From Candidatus Nanopelagicaceae bacterium (GTDB taxonomy: Bacteria; Actinomycetota; Actinomycetes; Nanopelagicales; Nanopelagicaceae), in contig VFFD01000002.1 of the NCBI GenBank assembly GCA_018882745.1, positions 1 through 55,937 of the forward strand: a stretch of DNA of 55,937 bases, read 5' to 3'. Below are positions 32,555 through 48,856 of this stretch, in pieces. The position numbers and the translations under genes are program-made. How positions within the stretch are numbered: position 1 is the first letter of the stretch; each line of letters starts with the position of its first letter. Below the pieces are notes generated by a model. That model did not search any database. It was not told where the DNA came from and saw only the letters and a list, made by a program, of their open reading frames with translations.

Positions 32555-33948
32555 ACCTATTTCTTGCCGTTCTGTCTGGAATCTTGTTCTGGATTGGTTT
32601 TGCACCATTTGAGTTGTGGATTGCTCCGTATCTCGGAGTTGCTCTGCTTTTTCGCACACTTTGTGAAAAACCATTTCACAATCGAGTAATTCTTGCTCTC
32701 GTAGCAGGATTATCTTTCTTTCTTCCGCTCCTTCATTGGAGCTCGGTTTATGTTGGAGCGATTCCATGGCTTGTTCTCGCAATAGGGGAGAGCCTGATTT
32801 TCGCTCTGATTGGTATACCTCGATGGAGCCGGAAATGGGAGAGCGCGCTCTCCTTTGCACTCCTCTTTACACTCATTGAATTGTTGAGAATGAAGGCGCC
32901 ATTCGGTGGTTTTGGATGGGGAAGAGTTGGTTTTACGCAGATTGATTCCATCAATTTCGTTTTTCCCATCATCGGCGTCACAGGTGTTTCTCTGATTGTT
33001 GCTCTAGCCGCGCTTATATTTACATCCGCTCGTAAGTTTGGTGCAGCGCTGCTGATTGCTTTCCTCTTTGGAAATGCAGCAATCAATTTTCTTGTGAAAG
33101 ATTTGCGCGAAACGAACTTACAGATAACTGCAATTCAAGGTGGAGTCGATATTCTCGGATTGGATTTTAATGATCGTGCGATGAGAATCTTGGACCGTCA
33201 CATTCAAGCAACTGTTAGAGTTCCAGAGACAGATTTATACATTTGGCCGGAAAACGCTTCCGATATCGATCCACTCAAGAATCCGATTGCCAATTCGAAG
33301 GTTGTCGAACTGATAAATGAGATTGATGCGCCATTACTCATAGGCGCCGTCGAAACCTCTGATTTGGGTCCTAAGAACTCAAGCCTTCTATTTAACATTC
33401 GAGGTTCATTAGATAGTCGTTACGTTAAGCAGGACCTCGCACCATTCGGTGAATACATGCCGATGCGACGACTCGCAGAAGCTATCTCTCCATATGCAGA
33501 GCAAGTTAACGACTTTCTACCGGGCAGCAAATGGATCAAACACATGGCTAATGGAGCGCCTTTTCAGTCATTAATCTGTTTTGAGATCTTGGATGATGAT
33601 CACGCTAAAGATGGGGCACGAGGTAGCTCTTTTCTCGTAGCTCAGACAAATAATGCAACCTTTGGAGAGAGTTCTGAAGCCGCTCAACAACTACAAATCA
33701 CTCGAGCTCGAGCCGCCGAATCTGGTCGCGAATTTGCCGTTGTGAGTACGACTGGTTTTACTGCACATATCAATAAGCAAGGAAAAGTTCTGGCGTCGTT
33801 GCCGCAATTTCTTCCCGACCAGCTAACTATGAAAATTGACCTGGTAGAACCCGAAAGAGCCACACTGGCTCAACGGCTTCAAAGCTGGATGTGGGCTTTG
33901 GGACTGATCGTTCTCTTTGCCCTTCTCCGTGTGAGATTAAGCCGATAA
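32548..33948 (+). CDS. lnt: Apolipoprotein N-acyltransferase
   Basis: Adds the third acyl chain to lipoproteins at the membrane. The protein has 466 residues: several N-terminal membrane helices, then a nitrilase-like domain and a C-terminal helix. The catalytic triad is plausible as Glu in IWPENASD, Lys in KQDLAPFGEYMP and Cys in SLICFEIL. It is the last gene of the rightward operon; its stop codon lies inside the dif site, so dif is placed right at the operon end. Confidence 0.92.
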   Translation: MVNLFLAVLSGILFWIGFAPFELWIAPYLGVALLFRTLCEKPFHNRVILALVAGLSFFLPLLHWSSVYVGAIPWLVLAIGESLIFALIGIPRWSRKWESALSFALLFTLIELLRMKAPFGGFGWGRVGFTQIDSINFVFPIIGVTGVSLIVALAALIFTSARKFGAALLIAFLFGNAAINFLVKDLRETNLQITAIQGGVDILGLDFNDRAMRILDRHIQATVRVPETDLYIWPENASDIDPLKNPIANSKVVELINEIDAPLLIGAVETSDLGPKNSSLLFNIRGSLDSRYVKQDLAPFGEYMPMRRLAEAISPYAEQVNDFLPGSKWIKHMANGAPFQSLICFEILDDDHAKDGARGSSFLVAQTNNATFGESSEAAQQLQITRARAAESGREFAVVSTTGFTAHINKQGKVLASLPQFLPDQLTMKIDLVEPERATLAQRLQSWMWALGLIVLFALLRVRLSR

Positions 33949-33965
33949 TCTACATTATGTCAAGT
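33938..33965 (+). other. dif site (XerCD chromosome dimer resolution site)
   Basis: A 28-bp sequence that agrees with the actinobacterial dif consensus I recall from the literature (TTSRCCGATAAT followed by VNACATTATGTCAAGT) at all but positions 2 and 3. The right part, ACATTATGTCAAGT, is exact, as is CCGATAAT on the left. It overlaps the lnt stop and ends 5 bases before the gcvP stop, exactly where the general gene direction flips. XerC and XerD recombine here to separate chromosome dimers. The consensus is from memory. Confidence 0.9.
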
Positions 33966-40656: not shown

Positions 40657-42627
40657 CTAGCGCTCTCGAATGCGCACTGAAACGCGAATAGGTGAGCCTG
40701 AAAAACCAAATTCTTCTCGTAAACGTCGTTCAATGAACCGACGATAGGACGCCTCAAGGAACTCAGTAGCAAAGATGACAAAGGTGGGAGGCGCTATACC
40801 TGCTTGTGTAGCAAAGAGAATTTTCGGTTGCTTTCCCCCGCGAATAGGGGGTGGATTGCTACCAATTAATTGACCTAAGAACGAGTTGAGTTTTCCCGTT
40901 GGAACGCGTAGCTCCCAACTGGAGAGCGCTCGCTCGATTGCTGGAAGCAGTCGATCTTTATGCCAACCCGTTTTCGCCGAAATGTTCACTCTTTCGGCCC
41001 ATTCAACTTGGTCGAAATTTCGATCCGTCTCTTTATCTAGCGAGAGTCTGCGTTCTTCGTCTACGAGATCCCACTTGTTCATGCCAATCACGAGCGCTTT
41101 CCCAGAATCCTCAACGAGAGAGATGATGCGTAGGTCCTGCTCGGTGATAGGAACGGAGGCGTCGAGAACCATGATGACCACTTCGGCATTCTCAATCGCC
41201 CGCTCGGTTCGAAGCGCCGCGTAGTAATCCGATCCAGAGGCTTGATGAGCTCTACGACGAATGCCAGCGGTGTCGATGAACCTCCATGTTTTATCGCCTA
41301 GATCAATGAGTTCGTCAATCGGGTCACGCGTCGTGCCTTCTGCATCATCAACAAGTGCACGAGTAGTGCCTGCAAAGGAATTGAGCAAACTACTTTTACC
41401 GACATTAGGACGACCGACGATTGCGATGCGACGATAGCCATCATCCATGCGACTCTGGCCAACTTCTGGAAGTTGAGAAACGATGAGATCCAATAAATCG
41501 CCGCTTCCACGACCATGCGCTGCTGAAATAAAGTGAGGTTCGCCCAGTCCTAAATTCCATAGCGAATGTGCTTCGAGTTCATCCTTCTCGCTATCAACCT
41601 TATTTGCAATCAACATGATTGGTTTCTTGCTCTTGCGCAGCACCGAAATGAGAGCGTCGTCATCAGATTGCTGGCCAACTTGTGCATCCACCACAAAAAG
41701 AACTAAATCAGCATCAACAATGGCAGATTCCGCAGCATCGGAGATTTTAAGAGCAATACCTTCCGCCGTCGGCTCCCACCCTCCGGTATCCACTACAACA
41801 AAACTTTTACCGTTCCATTCTGCTTCATACGAGACTCGATCACGAGTAACCCCAGGAGTATCTTCAATAATTGCTTCACGCGAACCGATGATGCGATTAA
41901 CTAAGGTTGACTTGCCAACATTAGGTCTTCCGATAATGACGACGCGTGGCAGGCCGATGAGAGATCGTTGCTTCAGAATATTCCAGATGTAATCGACTGT
42001 CTCACTCAAGGATAGATTCGTCGAATCTACGATGATCGCGTCTTCAGCTCTCTTCAGCGGCGAAACACTTCTTGTCGAATCAATATGATCACGGCTTGCA
42101 AGAGCATCTGCCACATCAGCTACTCCACCGCTGGTGATATTTGATTCCTTTTGTTCGATATCTCTGCGAATCGCACGGGCGCTAATGTCTGCTTGGAGCC
42201 ATATTTTTAGCTGTGCTTGAGGGGCGACAACTGTTCCGATATCTCGGCCTTCGACAACGATTCCATTTTTGGCGCTTTCAATAATCCTTCGCTGTAACGC
42301 CAAAAGTGATTGCCGCACTTCGGGCCATGCGCTGATGCGACTGACAGCTGATGTTACTTCTGGTGTACGAATTGCAGTTGAAACATCAACACCACCACAC
42401 AAAGTGATCGGGTTGTCGGGATCTGTTTTTAAGACAATGGGATATTTCTGTAAAGCTTCAATGAGTGATTGAGCATCATCGATAGTTTCACGTATCGCAA
42501 GCCATGTTGCAGCGCGATATAACGCACCTGTGTCGAGGTATAACCAACCAGCTCTCTTTGCGATTGTCTTAGAGGTCGATGATTTTCCTGAACCACTAGG
42601 TCCATCCATTGCAATAACAACGGTCAT
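40657..42627 (-). CDS. cmk-der: Bifunctional cytidylate kinase / GTPase Der
   Basis: One frame of 656 residues fuses two proteins. Residues 1 to about 215 are CMP kinase ([38 protein letters not shown]). The remainder is the double-GTPase Der/EngA, with two G domains each starting with a GRPNVGKS motif and a KH-like end; Der acts in 50S ribosome assembly. Such fusions occur in several actinobacteria; in mycobacteria the genes are adjacent. It overlaps tyrA by ATGA and is the third gene of aroH-tyrA-cmk-der. Confidence 0.95.
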
Positions 42628-43717: not shown

Positions 43718-44080
43718 TTACTGGGCAATATCTTTCCGTAGCGTTACAGCGCCACGGAGATAAATATGTGAGATCTCTTCTTGTTCGCGCGGGGTATGGC
43801 AATGAACCAAAGTCCGAATCGTTCGAGGCAGGCTATCGGGTACTGCCATTTCTACTGCACAGATCAAGGGCACCCTCTCCATCCCCATGGCACGAGCTGA
43901 CGCAGCCGGAAAGTCGCTGACAAGATCCGGGGTGCAAGTGAAAAGGACAGAGATCAGATCCTTGGGCGTAAGGGAGTTAGAAGACAAGATTTCGGACATC
44001 AACTCGACGACCGCTTCTTTCATGAGCCCTGGGTCATCGCGATCGATCTGAATAGCGCCACGAATCGCGCGTACTGTCAT
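43718..44080 (-). CDS. aroH: Chorismate mutase, AroH type
   Basis: Monofunctional trimeric-type chorismate mutase of 120 residues. VRAIRGAIQIDRDD carries the active-site Arg, and VLFTCTPDLVSDFPA, VPLICAVEMAVP and the C-terminal HIYLRGAVTLRKD are family features. It converts chorismate to prephenate for the TyrA encoded next. The ATG lies 6 bases behind TAAAAT. The gene is preceded by a 281-base repeat-rich region that may regulate it. Confidence 0.92.
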   Translation of the reverse strand: MTVRAIRGAIQIDRDDPGLMKEAVVELMSEILSSNSLTPKDLISVLFTCTPDLVSDFPAASARAMGMERVPLICAVEMAVPDSLPRTIRTLVHCHTPREQEEISHIYLRGAVTLRKDIAQ

Positions 44081-44361
44081 TGCGGAATTTTACCGAAAGC
44101 CTCAAGAATCCCGCGAAGGTGATACGGCGTTTTATCGATAAATTGCTTTGATAAGAAAAAGTACCTCTTGAGTAATTATCGACATTCTTTTGATCAGGGC
44201 GGGCACCCGCTGGTTATCTATTTATCGATAATCTAGATCTGTTTTGCGCTCAAAATTATCGATAAATAGAGATTCAATCGCCCGTGTAAACACGATTTAT
44301 TGATTTATGGCTATTTGGAAACTCTCGTTAAATGGTCTTATCTACTTATCAATAAAACGTT
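44081..44361. repeat. Intergenic cluster of TTATCGATAA palindromes
   Basis: The longest gene-free stretch of the window, AT-rich. TTTATCGATAAA is at 44131-44142 (perfect 12-bp palindrome), with TTATCGATAA at 44222-44231 and 44256-44265 and TTATCAATAA at 44346-44355. Degenerate or half copies are at 44176-44184, 44147-44155 and 44296-44306. The copies at 44217-44232 and 44255-44270 are embedded in a perfect 16-bp inverted repeat. No ORF or RNA gene is recognised. It may be an operator array for aroH or a centromere-like site. Confidence 0.75.
44087..44092 (-). promoter_or_regulatory. -10 box TAAAAT for leaderless aroH
   Basis: TAAAAT on the minus strand, 6 bases before the aroH ATG at 44080. 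The nearest palindrome is centred about 56 bases upstream of the start codon. Confidence 0.55.
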
Positions 44362-45057
44362 TTAACGATTTACTAATTCAACGCTATTCAGCGAACGCCA
44401 CTTTCCAGGTGGCAACTCCCCCAGCTTGATGGAACCGATGGCCGTTCTAATCAGCCGTTCTACCGGATAACCCAAAGCATCGAACATCCGTCGAACGATT
44501 TGATTGCGCCCCTCGTGGATCACCACTTCAATCATCGCACCGCGGCGGGCGACAGAGATTGGCTTTGCGAGTCCATCGTCTAGCTCAACCCCCTCCACCA
44601 GGTTCTGAAACGCAGAACGGGAGATGGGTTCCTCGGTTTGCACAAGATATGTTTTTTCGACTCCAAAGGATGGGTGTGTGGACTCATGTGCCCATTGACC
44701 ATCATTGGTCAAAATTATGAGACCTTCGCTCTCCTTATCCAGCCTTCCCACATGAAAGAGTCGATCTGGCCATGACCCAAAAAAGTCCTGCAAGGAGGGT
44801 CGACCTTCGGGGTCTGACATAGTGGACAAAATGCCAGCAGGTTTATTGAATGCAAGGTAAGTCTTGGTCTTTGTTGCGCTTATTAACTCATTATCAACTT
44901 CAACTTTAGTGTTTATCGGGTCGATTTTCACCCCTTGAGCTTTAACTATCTTTCCATTGACCTTTACGCGCCCTTCATCAATTAACGCTTCGCAGGCTCG
45001 GCGGCTAGCAACGCCGCAATCCGCCATGAATTTCTGAAGACGTACAAGTTCGGCCAT
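44362..45057 (-). CDS. rluB: RluB/RsuA-family pseudouridine synthase
   Basis: Protein of 231 residues that isomerises uridine in rRNA, most likely 23S. An N-terminal S4 RNA-binding domain (RLQKFMADCGVASRRACEALI) is followed by the catalytic domain with the active-site Asp in FHVGRLDKESEGLIILTNDG and the late motif GRNQIVRRMFDALGYPV. It lies behind scpB as in many bacteria. TACACT stands 7 bases before the ATG (45065-45070), so it may have its own leaderless promoter. Confidence 0.93.
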   Translation of the reverse strand: MAELVRLQKFMADCGVASRRACEALIDEGRVKVNGKIVKAQGVKIDPINTKVEVDNELISATKTKTYLAFNKPAGILSTMSDPEGRPSLQDFFGSWPDRLFHVGRLDKESEGLIILTNDGQWAHESTHPSFGVEKTYLVQTEEPISRSAFQNLVEGVELDDGLAKPISVARRGAMIEVVIHEGRNQIVRRMFDALGYPVERLIRTAIGSIKLGELPPGKWRSLNSVELVNR

Positions 45058-45072
45058 AGCCGCGAGTGTACG

Positions 45073-45630
45073 TTACTCAGTGAGTGAAGCTATAACCTCA
45101 TCGAGGCCGTCGATATTCGGCAGGAATGGAGCGAGAGCGGGGAGATCTTCCACGCGATTGACTCCGATTCGCTCCAAGAAATAGTGGGTCGTTCTGTAGA
45201 GGATTGCGCCCGTTTCATGCTCAATGCCGCACTCCTCTACCAATCCACGAGTAACAAGAGTTTTCATCACAGCTTCCACGTTAACGCCTCGAATCGCTGA
45301 GACTCGAGCGCGAGAGATTGGTTGGCGATAAGCGATCACAGCCAGAGTTTCCAGAGCAGCTTGAGTGAGTTTTGCCTGTTGACCATCAAGAACGAACTTT
45401 TCAACTAACGGAGCAAGATCAGGGTGGCTATAGAAGCGCCAACCGCCAGAGATTTGCTTAAGGGTGAAACCACGATTCTGGCTCTCGTATTCAGAGGCGA
45501 GGTTATGGAGCGCCTCAAGGACCTGCTCGGTCGGAGCTTCGATAATTTGAGCAAGAACCACTTCTGAAACAGGCTCTTCTACAACCATCAGAATCGCTTC
45601 AATAGAACGATGGAGCTCTAGATTAGACAT
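45073..45630 (-). CDS. scpB: Segregation and condensation protein B
   Basis: Winged-helix partner of SMC and ScpA in chromosome condensation, 185 residues. Typical segments are IEAILMVVEEPVSEVVLAQII, TLAVIAYRQPISRARVSAIRGVN and LYRTTHYFLERIG. The ATG follows the scpA stop directly, so the two subunits are made together. The smc gene is not in the window. Confidence 0.94.
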   Translation of the reverse strand: MSNLELHRSIEAILMVVEEPVSEVVLAQIIEAPTEQVLEALHNLASEYESQNRGFTLKQISGGWRFYSHPDLAPLVEKFVLDGQQAKLTQAALETLAVIAYRQPISRARVSAIRGVNVEAVMKTLVTRGLVEECGIEHETGAILYRTTHYFLERIGVNRVEDLPALAPFLPNIDGLDEVIASLTE

Positions 45631-46563
45631 TTAGTTATCCCTCTGTTCAGGCTGACCGGCGGCAGACTCATCGTTGCTTTCAAGTACTGGTTCCCTATCG
45701 AATTCGTCGCTCACAGCAATCTCGCCCTCGGCTGCGCCCGTCCAGGTGATCTGAAGCTCTCCGAGGGCCATGAGCTGCTCGAAACGAACCGAGCCATCTT
45801 TGTATAACTCCAGCAGTGAGAGAAAGCGGGCTACCACCACGAGGGTGTTCGGTGCATCGGCGACCAACCCTCTAAAAGTCATTGTTTTATGCCTTCTTAG
45901 GGCAGCTACGACAAGTATTGCTTCAGCTGCAACGCTGACCAAGGGTAGATGGAGATGCTCCACGGAGAGCGTAGGAGCTGTTTTGGGCGTTAGGACTCGG
46001 TTGGCAATCGCGGCAAATCTTTCCGGGGTAACCCCAATGAGCACCTCCGGTAGCAGCGCTGCAAAAACGGGGTCGAGCGAGACCGAGCGTGGGAAGGTCT
46101 TCTCCTGAGCTGAGATTCGCTCCGCCAAGATATTCGCTATCTCTTTAAAGGCTCGATATTGAAGTAAGCGAGCAAAGAGAAGATCTCGAGCTTCAAGAAG
46201 AGCCAGATCCTCTTCGTCATCAATTTCACCGGAGGGAAGTAACCGCGCAGCTTTCAGATCAAGCAAAGTAGCGGCAACAACTAAGAATTCGGTGGCGTGG
46301 TCTAACTTCCACCCCTCCTCTGTCTTCTCTAATTCACGGATATACGCGATAAATTCATCAGTAACAGTTGCAATAGCAACATCGGTGATATCCATCCGAT
46401 GACGTGAGATAAGTTGCAATAGAAGATCAAATGGACCATCAAAATTCTCAAGATGAACAGAGAAACCTGCCACGCGACCTTCACCGGAGATCGTCGTTGC
46501 GCCAGATATAGGCGGTAGTTGACCTAAAGTATTACTTGAGGGTTCAACAAACTCTTCGCTCAT
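45631..46563 (-). CDS. scpA: Segregation and condensation protein A
   Basis: Kleisin subunit of the SMC complex, about 310 residues. FSVHLENFDGPFDLLLQLISRHRMDITDVAIATV is the conserved N-terminal segment (two SMC-binding helices), and the C-terminal winged helix includes RFLSLLELYKDGSVRFEQ. I chose the ATG at 46563 (MSEEFVEPSS); an ATG at 46572 and a longer frame to 46632 exist but enter the divergent parA promoter. TACAGT lies 9 bases upstream. Confidence 0.92.
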   Translation of the reverse strand: MSEEFVEPSSNTLGQLPPISGATTISGEGRVAGFSVHLENFDGPFDLLLQLISRHRMDITDVAIATVTDEFIAYIRELEKTEEGWKLDHATEFLVVAATLLDLKAARLLPSGEIDDEEDLALLEARDLLFARLLQYRAFKEIANILAERISAQEKTFPRSVSLDPVFAALLPEVLIGVTPERFAAIANRVLTPKTAPTLSVEHLHLPLVSVAAEAILVVAALRRHKTMTFRGLVADAPNTLVVVARFLSLLELYKDGSVRFEQLMALGELQITWTGAAEGEIAVSDEFDREPVLESNDESAAGQPEQRDN

Positions 46564-46613
46564 GGTGCGCATACTGTACGCGTGTCGCTCACGATATGAC
46601 TGCACCCCGTGGC

Positions 46614-46619
46614 TAGAGT
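46614..46619 (+). promoter_or_regulatory. -10 box TAGAGT for leaderless parA
   Basis: TAGAGT is followed by 6 bases and the parA ATG at 46626. It diverges from the scpA operon. Confidence 0.55.
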
Positions 46620-46625
46620 CTCGGC

Positions 46626-47543
46626 ATGGCAAAAAGTGCTTCAGAGATTTCTCGCTTGAACGCTAAATCGACATTTTCGAAAGCGGATTCAGATATCACA
46701 ACATCATCCTCCGTTCTAGGAAAACCAGAACGAGAATTTCCTTATCCTGCGCCACTTGTTGAACATGGCGATGCTCGAATCATCTCCGTTGTTAACCAAA
46801 AAGGTGGAGTTGGTAAAACAACCACCACAATAAATCTCGGAGCTGCATTTGCCGAACTTGGTCGTCGCGTATTGCTCGTTGATTTTGATCCACAACATTC
46901 GCTCTCCGTTGGGCTCAATGTCTCAACGCGCGATATTGAAGGATCTGTTTACAACTTGCTGATGGATGAATCCACGAAAATCGATGATTTCTTACTTAAA
47001 ACGAGTGTTCCAGGAATGGACATGATTCCTGCTCACGAGGATCTCTCTGGCGCTGAAGGCGGACTTGTCAACGTTATCGCCCGCGAAAAGATTTTGAAGC
47101 GAGTGCTCTCATCGGTTACGGATTTTTACGATGTCATTTTGATTGATTGCCAGCCTTCTCTTGGTTTGCTGACCGTCAATGCTCTCACCGCATCTCACTG
47201 GGTTCTTGTTCCGCTGGAATGTGAGTACTTCGCGCTCCGGGGCGTTGCTCTCCTTGATGACATCATCAAGAAAGTACAGATCAATACCAACCCTGAACTC
47301 AAATTGCTCGGAATTCTGCCTACGATGTTTGATCGCAAGACCGTGCATAGCCGCGAAGTGCTCGAACGCATTAGCGAAGCTTTCCCAGAAAAAGTATTTG
47401 ATACCACAATCGCCCGCACCGTTCGTTTCCCTGAAACAACTGTTGCTGGTGAACCAATCACATCGTATGCAAGTTCATCTGTCGGAGCTGCGTCATACCG
47501 TCGCTTAGCTCGTGAAATTATCGCCAATGGAGGGGTTCGATGA
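46626..47543 (+). CDS. parA: ParA-family partition ATPase
   Basis: ParA/Soj ATPase of 305 residues. A poorly conserved 50-residue N-terminal tail precedes the deviant Walker A KGGVGKTTTTINLG at about 59-72; VLLVDFDPQHSLSVGL and VILIDCQPSLGLLTVNAL are the A' and B motifs. It is the only rightward gene pair in the right arm and diverges from scpA, a position shared with a ParA-like gene near scpAB in mycobacteria. It is unlikely to be the oriC-linked parA, since no parB or parS is seen. It overlaps the next gene by ATGA. Confidence 0.92.
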   Translation: MAKSASEISRLNAKSTFSKADSDITTSSSVLGKPEREFPYPAPLVEHGDARIISVVNQKGGVGKTTTTINLGAAFAELGRRVLLVDFDPQHSLSVGLNVSTRDIEGSVYNLLMDESTKIDDFLLKTSVPGMDMIPAHEDLSGAEGGLVNVIAREKILKRVLSSVTDFYDVILIDCQPSLGLLTVNALTASHWVLVPLECEYFALRGVALLDDIIKKVQINTNPELKLLGILPTMFDRKTVHSREVLERISEAFPEKVFDTTIARTVRFPETTVAGEPITSYASSSVGAASYRRLAREIIANGGVR

Positions 47544-47956
47544 CTCGTCGTATTAGTTTGCCTGGAGCTGATGAACTTTTTCGTAAAACAACGCTGAGCG
47601 CCGTTCCAGATCAAGTTGTAGAAGAAGTTGAGGTTGCTCATACAAATCGTGCAACAACTCAATCTGTTGCGAAAGCTGCGCCGAAAAGTACTGGCGTTCG
47701 TCAAACTCCCCGTCGTCGTCCTACTGGTTTAGATAAAGGTCCATCCGGTCGCGAAAAGCATGATGAGAAGATAACGGTTTATCTCTCACCTGAAGAGCTC
47801 TTTGACTTAGAGCAAGCGCGACTTCATCTGCGTGGCGACTTAGGTTTAGCTGTAGATCGCGGTCGCATTGTTCGCGAAGCTCTCGCAATTGTTATCGCTG
47901 ATCTAGAGTCAAAAGGCGATCAATCAATCATTGCTCGACGTCTTCGCGGACGTTAA
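47540..47956 (+). CDS. Ribbon-helix-helix-like partner of ParA
   Basis: Protein of 138 residues. The first ~70 residues are low-complexity and basic (RQTPRRRPTGLDKG). The C-terminal KITVYLSPEELFDLEQARLHLRG with VDRGRIVREALAIVIADLE looks like a ribbon-helix-helix DNA-binding domain. Four-base overlap with parA suggests a functional pair, as in plasmid ParA-ParG/Omega systems, where the RHH protein binds the centromere. No ParB-type protein is present. The stop abuts the stop of convergent xerD with no bases between. Confidence 0.7.
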   Translation: MTRRISLPGADELFRKTTLSAVPDQVVEEVEVAHTNRATTQSVAKAAPKSTGVRQTPRRRPTGLDKGPSGREKHDEKITVYLSPEELFDLEQARLHLRGDLGLAVDRGRIVREALAIVIADLESKGDQSIIARRLRGR

Positions 47957-48856
47957 TTACCGCGAGCGCGGATGTGCGCTTGCATAACTCTCCCGAAGTT
48001 TATCGATCGTTACTAACGTGTAGATCTGGGTTGTCGTAACGGAAGCGTGTCCCAGTAACTCCTGCACTACGCGAATATCTGCTCCCCCATCAATCAAATG
48101 GGTGGCAAATGAGTGACGAAGAGCGTGAGGAGAAATCACTTTCTCTAACCCCGCCCGATTCGCAGCTTGAGAAACAATGTTCCAAGCGCTCTGGCGACTG
48201 AGACGATTCCCTTGTTTCTCGCTCAAGAAGAGCGCTTCCTCGCGATGATTTTTGATAAACGTAGGTCGGGCTCGAGTCAGATATTGATCCAGCGCTTGTT
48301 GAGCAAAACGACCAAGGGGAACAAGCCTCTCTTTTCCACCTTTTCCTCGCACACGCACCGTCGTTGTTTCACCTTCACTACGTGCGATATCGCCAACGTT
48401 AAGTTGAACTATCTCACTCACTCGACCTCCCGTGGCATACAGAGTTTCGAGCAATGCACGATCGCGTAGACCACTTAGATCATCACTACACGAAGTAATC
48501 AAAGATTCCACTTCAGTTATGGAGAGCGCTTTTGGAAGACGTTTTGGTATGCGGGGCGGATTTATCTCCTTTGCAATATTTACTATTCCTTGATCTTTAG
48601 CGAGAAAAGCGAAGAGGCTGCGAATCGCGACAGCATGACGCGCGATGCTCGACTCTCCTAAACCGGATATTCGAAGACCTTGTAGAAATTCGGTGATATC
48701 TGCGCTCTGCGCGGTAGTAACGTCTTGGTTCTTTCCAATAAGAAATTCATGAAATTTATTCAAATCACGACGATACGCTGCAATCGTGTTCTTACTTAAA
48801 CCTCTTTCGACCGCGCAATGATTGAGAAAGATTTCAATCAGCGCTGAGTTAGCCAC
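47957..48856 (-). CDS. xerD: Tyrosine recombinase XerD
   Basis: Site-specific recombinase of 299 residues that acts with XerC at dif. An N-terminal SAM-like core-binding domain ([20 protein letters not shown]) precedes the catalytic domain. Catalytic Arg is in [10 protein letters not shown], the HALRH box is near 244-248, the second His in [13 protein letters not shown] near 269 and the nucleophile Tyr near 279. The GTG start lies within the pyrG end (8-base overlap). A dif site lies 14 kb away. Confidence 0.93.

Follow-up and report, generated by a model that had tools for sequence, protein, structure and literature searches.

ParA systems on plasmids and chromosomes

In plasmid partition systems of type Ib, such as ParF-ParG, delta-omega of pSM19035 and the ParA/ParB pair of pCXC100, the centromere-binding proteins act as repressors and combine an RHH C-terminus with a flexible N-terminus that carries an arginine finger (PMC5016525). 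The locus described here resembles these systems in that parA is followed by the gene of a small protein with a disordered N-terminus and an RHH-like C-terminus, and in that an array of short repeats is accompanied by a putative operator at the start of the operon. Unlike them, it is chromosomal and part of a conserved housekeeping cluster, its array is 2.3 kb from where parA starts, with scpAB and rluB in between, its boxes are palindromes on a lattice of ca 8.2 bp, and its RHH-like protein (hereafter RHH) belongs to no Pfam or NCBIfam family. A chromosomal ParA with an RHH protein is also known from SegAB of the archaeal Sulfolobales, in which, in contrast to the one compact array seen here, the SegB sites are scattered over the chromosome (PMC12284271); by inspection, the SegAB consensus TCTAGAsTCTAGA is also different from the motif of the array.

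A second ParA, known as PldP or ParA2 (C. glutamicum Cg1610, M. tuberculosis Rv1708, S. coelicolor SCO1772), has been described in all actinobacteria (PMC4255298). PldP localises to septa and has been regarded as an orphan, lacking a ParB to partner it (PMC3989709), and the mycobacterial Rv1708 binds both ScpA and ParB (PMC10482377). Like these proteins, the ParA of the present locus adjoins scpA and, from gene order and the published descriptions, it is the positional counterpart of PldP/ParA2/Rv1708. What sets it apart from PldP as published are the co-encoded partner and the cognate DNA sites that are proposed below. No earlier report of an RHH partner of PldP, or of the palindrome array, was found in the open-licence literature, where the motif strings lead only to unrelated papers.

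Canonical ParABS shares with this locus the logic of a ParA and a centromere, but its parS is a different palindrome (TGTTTCACGTGAAACA-type) which lies near the origin and is bound by a ParB_N protein. Here the motif differs, the array of a complete relative (G030, 1.16 Mb) lies 9.7 kb from dif, and a separate ParB_N protein is encoded on another contig of the genome under study. MatP is an RHH-type DNA binder, and the MatP/matS system likewise has its place in the terminus region. MatP, however, has no ParA partner. Moreover, the matS sites of E. coli are dispersed, with 23 repeats across an 800-kb domain (PMC3330122), whereas the sites in complete G030 form a single cluster.

The locus and its array

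The window, that is the whole stretch of 55,937 nucleotides that was analysed, belongs to a genome of the Nanopelagicaceae (acI), with Ca. Planktophila lacus among its relatives. The gene order is pyrG, xerD, RHH, parA, scpA, scpB, rluB, array, aroH, tyrA and cmk-der. On the minus strand, aroH (chorismate mutase type I, 43718..44080) borders the array downstream and rluB (pseudouridine synthase, 44362..45057) borders it upstream, with scpB (45073..45630) and scpA (45631..46632) beyond. The plus strand then carries the ParA-family ATPase (46626..47543; Pfam AAA_31 4e-58, Walker A KGGVGKTT) and the unannotated RHH of 138 amino acids (47540..47956), which is the proposed binder of the array and whose gene lies 3 kb from it. 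The two reading frames overlap by 4 bp; in other words, ParA and then a small gene form one operon. An XerD-like recombinase (47957..48856, minus strand) follows, placing the parA-RHH pair between xerD and scpAB, and the pair is kept across the class. The dif core, CCGATAATCTACATTATGTC, is found at the GC-skew turn (33942..33961, plus strand), 10.2 kb from the array by measurement, in agreement with the ca 10 kb of the original prediction. In the same cluster cmk and der are fused into one frame of 656 amino acids (40657-42627) with cytidylate kinase and EngA domains.

The array, for which a centromere-like role is proposed below, spans 44127..44376 as defined by a matrix scan and by conservation in the corresponding gaps of relatives, and no strand is assigned either to it or to its copies of the motif. 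Seven sites reach a matrix score of 8 bits or more (44127-44146, 44171-44190, 44217-44236, 44251-44270, 44292-44311, 44341-44360 and 44357-44376). Within them, three exact copies of TTATCGATAA (44132..44141, 44222-44231 and 44256-44265) and one of TTATCAATAA (44346..44355) are clustered as the original prediction had it, and this clustering withstands a shuffle control: the window has 8 matches with one mismatch or better where 1.8 ± 1.4 would be expected, a count reached in 0 of 100 shuffles. At 10 bits or more there are five sites in the array, against a mean of 0.05 and a maximum of 2 in 1000 Markov shuffles. The second and third copies (within 44217..44270) form the perfect 16-bp inverted repeat already noticed from the sequence, 44217-44232 and 44255-44270, with 22 bases between. 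What had not been noticed is a wider symmetry, in which TTATCAATAA is the mirror partner of the first copy: the four copies start 90, 34 and 90 bases apart and are therefore mirror-symmetric about 44243.5, and the outer arms, 44128-44141 and 44346-44359, match at 13 of 14 positions.

Such clustering is peculiar to this place. The 1.22-Mb draft genome holds only seven copies of TTATCGATAA, three of them in the array and the remaining four single and within reading frames, so that the motif is not common genome-wide and its exact copies cluster nowhere else. The description of the gap as the largest intergenic region is not confirmed, since the gap between the rluB and aroH reading frames measures 281 bp and gaps of ca 310 and ca 340 bp separate other listed reading frames, these being mechanical calls.

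Conservation of the array

Conservation between close relatives, on which the original prediction was staked, proved to be complete in the family: a degenerate WTRTCGAYAW array, composed of T[AG]TCGA[CT]A boxes, is present in all 50 rluB-aroH gaps examined from Nanopelagicaceae, representing 16 genera (rluB is adjacent in 49 and cut off by a contig end in one). AroH identity among these 50 members falls to ca 46%, and the gaps, which are ca 67% A+T, keep a length of 240-330 bp in nearly all of these streamlined genomes. An array has 3.6 strong sites on average, a Markov shuffle 0.07. Their placement is regular; with one array per genus (73 sites), the distances between pairs of boxes have a period of 8.2 bp with a power of 18.8, which none of 1000 random placements equalled. 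A helical spacing of 10.5 bp was also considered and gave only a weak signal, whereas that at 8.2 bp is strong. In complete G030, scanned with a matrix built without its own genus, the array is the sole cluster, having seven sites with a summed score of 92 where the runner-up has three sites and a sum of 27.

Beyond the family, the array is kept in genomes of 59-75% GC; the arrays of high-GC genomes are sparser, and the matrix itself derives from arrays of low GC. By this matrix, no rluB-aroH array is seen in the Streptomyces-like (f19) and f26 genomes, which keep RHH; the array is therefore not universal with RHH. In some high-GC relatives further sites occur in the tyrA-cmk and RHH-scpA gaps (L118 14646-14654, L122 4417, L124 14011-14062, L129 14935-14987 and L310 15143-15226), from which it follows that the zone of sites can span several kb.

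The RHH-like protein

Of 101 genomes of the order, 96 have a single copy of RHH, as do 74 of the 148 genomes of the class. Searches of its sequence against PDB, Pfam, NCBIfam and PHROGs gave nothing useful, and no Pfam RHH family was matched. Its designation comes instead from three observations. The residue pattern is distinctive, with a nearly invariant core in the C-terminal part, EKITVYxSxxEL ... DRGRIVRE, and a conserved N-terminus, MSRRxxLPGADELFR. The AlphaFold2 model places two confident helices (residues 84-101 and 107-128, pLDDT above 90) after a segment predicted as a strand (KITVY), and gives residues ca 1-75 low confidence, as a disordered N-terminus. Finally, the top fold match in the PDB is the RHH centromere-binding protein of pCXC100, albeit a weak one (E 1.1, probability 0.60). 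Residue pattern and predicted model together make a strong case, short of proof, that the 138-residue protein is RHH-like.

Co-occurrence of the motif with RHH

If the motif belonged to aroH, it would be expected wherever aroH is found. Instead it follows RHH. Among loci all of which contain aroH, a core is present in 15 of 23 rluB-aroH gaps with RHH and in 0 of 12 from Actinomycetes genomes without it. Over whole loci, from which L303 was excluded (its apparent tandem sites arise artificially from a masked stretch of Ns), those with RHH give 102 matrix matches against 12.7 ± 6.1 for a permuted-matrix control, and those that keep ParA and lack RHH give 12 against 7.8 ± 3.9.

The same motif recurs where parA begins, in a constant position, in nearly all loci of the Nanopelagicaceae. 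The copy in the window (46660..46679, plus strand; core AAATCGACAT) is a proposed autoregulatory operator. In this family it falls in the codons AAA-TCG-ACA, the serine codon being TCG in 75 of 75, and the relative synonymous diversity of the motif codons is 0 to 0.15 compared with 0.85 gene-wide; in other words, conservation here acts at the level of the DNA. In other families of the Actinomycetes, 34 of 39 loci bearing RHH have a TGTCGACA-type core across the parA start codon or in the leader before it, compared with 0 of 16 loci with ParA and without RHH; the scan covered a leader of 450 bp and the background expectation is 0.07 cores per 450 bp. Between parA and scpA, the RHH-less loci contain no RHH-like motif. 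The motif lies within the untranslated leader in L292, L297, L298 and L303. Five loci with RHH have no core in the 450-bp scan, that of L306 being slightly further upstream; in L293, L295, L296 (f26) and L302 (f8) RHH is present and the TGTCGACA core is absent at parA. It is possible that the binding specificity has changed in these last four, in which case they could serve to map the residues of recognition.

Genomes G124 and G151 (family f4) have ParA without RHH. On a tree of neighbouring proteins RHH changes ca 8-10 times. Of eight independent pairs, an average of 7.3 have a parA-start motif that goes with RHH, and 0 have one that opposes it (sign test p ~0.016).

Function of the array

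Given this pattern, we consider it probable that the RHH encoded 3' of the chromosomal ParA2/PldP docks on the array, which would thus be centromere-like. ParA2/PldP, held to be an orphan, would then probably be served by a partner protein and a centromere-like site of its own, near the point where replication of the chromosome terminates. The best reading of the comparative sequence evidence is accordingly of a chromosomal, terminus-proximal ParA/RHH/centromere-like system whose RHH would also autoregulate the operon. We infer that RHH is the binder. Its dimers would occupy the 8-bp palindromic boxes (TATCGATA/TGTCGACA type) along the ca 8.2-bp lattice of the rluB-aroH gap and, by assembling there, would build a nucleoprotein complex. 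By analogy with plasmid type Ib, RHH may engage and stimulate ParA through its conserved N-terminal tail (MSRRxxLPGADELFR), with the presumed outcome that the locus, close to the terminus, is placed or kept in place with respect to the nucleoid and the division site, and RHH on the single site at the parA start would set the level of the operon.

Other explanations of the array need to be weighed against this one. That it is an operator array through which a regulator of aromatic amino acids controls aroH-tyrA-cmk-der, as the original prediction offered, has its position upstream of aroH in its favour, yet must now be rejected because the RHH-less rluB-aroH gaps, all 12 of them, are without the motif. 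The recurrence of the motif at the start of parA-RHH also contradicts it, leaving this explanation highly improbable. Closer to negligible still is the notion of a chance motif in AT-rich intergenic DNA, or of a structured RNA: the gaps are indeed AT-rich, but the shuffle controls and the retention of the array at 59-75% GC contradict chance, and the array gap has no match in Rfam, which speaks against structured RNA. A quite unlikely reading, though one with more to commend it, is that RHH is solely a local transcription factor that represses parA-RHH, its array serving to tune aroH-tyrA or to damp read-through from scpAB-rluB, with no part in partition. Repressors are frequent among RHH proteins, the array does lie upstream of aroH, and the additional sites of high-GC genomes in the RHH-scpA and tyrA-cmk gaps are likewise in 5' regions. 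Set against this, the array fills the whole gap and is far bigger than one promoter requires, aroH never carries it where RHH is lacking, and the co-transcribed partner of RHH is a ParA ATPase with xerD and scpAB for neighbours.

The alternative offered by the original prediction, a chromosome-organising site, stands in kind, with the more specific content that the array tracks the pair of genes, for ParA and RHH, which xerD and scpAB flank. Such a site could also be imagined after the manner of MatP/matS, as an organiser or anchor of the terminus by which the divisome or condensin is connected with the region of dif, ParA2/PldP then being a divisome factor and not a segregation motor. The presence of PldP at septa and the binding of ScpA and ParB by Rv1708 (PMC3989709, PMC10482377) fit this, as does the array lying ca 10 kb from dif both in the window genome and in G030. 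Distances measured from RHH fit it too: dif is 13-15 kb away in all 18 complete or near-complete Nanopelagicaceae genomes and, in high-GC genomes that have RHH and dif on the same contig, 15-34 kb away in six and 128 kb in a seventh. The sites, on the other hand, are not dispersed but form a single compact array, and 6 of 8 genomes without RHH also have the locus close to dif, at 18-54 kb. The location is thus not specific to the array or to RHH, and nearness to dif, which had been entertained as proof of a role at the terminus, is weakened as such. An organiser of this kind is, on balance, unlikely. In f26 genomes with RHH, in which the array was undetected, the locus lies 69-745 kb from dif.

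Returning to the docking of RHH on a centromere-like array, a bolder version may be put forward tentatively, at somewhat less than even chances. It is that actinobacteria possess a second partition machine, dedicated to the terminus and made up of ParA2/PldP, a hitherto undescribed RHH and a compact centromere near dif, of which RHH and its sites have been gained or lost together ca 8-10 times, leaving PldP an orphan elsewhere. Already with docking as proposed above, chromosomal ParA/RHH systems, known from archaea as SegAB, would reach into bacteria, among them some of the most abundant in fresh water, and there take the form of a compact site close to the terminus. With a candidate partner protein, its DNA sequence, operator and array named, and the lineages that lack them shown, what the second actinobacterial ParA does can be tested directly.

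Two further patches of coding sequence

Two other stretches of coding sequence in these loci differ from their surroundings. In the Nanopelagicaceae loci L134-L213, codons ca 50-75 of rluB have a synonymous diversity of 0.44-0.56, compared with 0.86 gene-wide. The second is in parA, where matrix matches near position 550, mostly not the palindrome, prompted an inspection of GC3. A patch of ca 60 bp (codons ca 211-230), which is not visible in Nanopelagicaceae, has a GC3 of 0.35-0.63 in array-bearing high-GC genomes as against ca 0.95 in RHH-less or array-less ones; examples are L116 near 8566 and L117 near 2008, and L124 8218 and L310 9390 on the reverse strand of the locus. The patch has conserved rare codons, ACT ATA GAC AAA ... 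CTT AAC CCT CAA CTT, and is read as a buried DNA element, perhaps one more site for binding or a promoter inside the gene.
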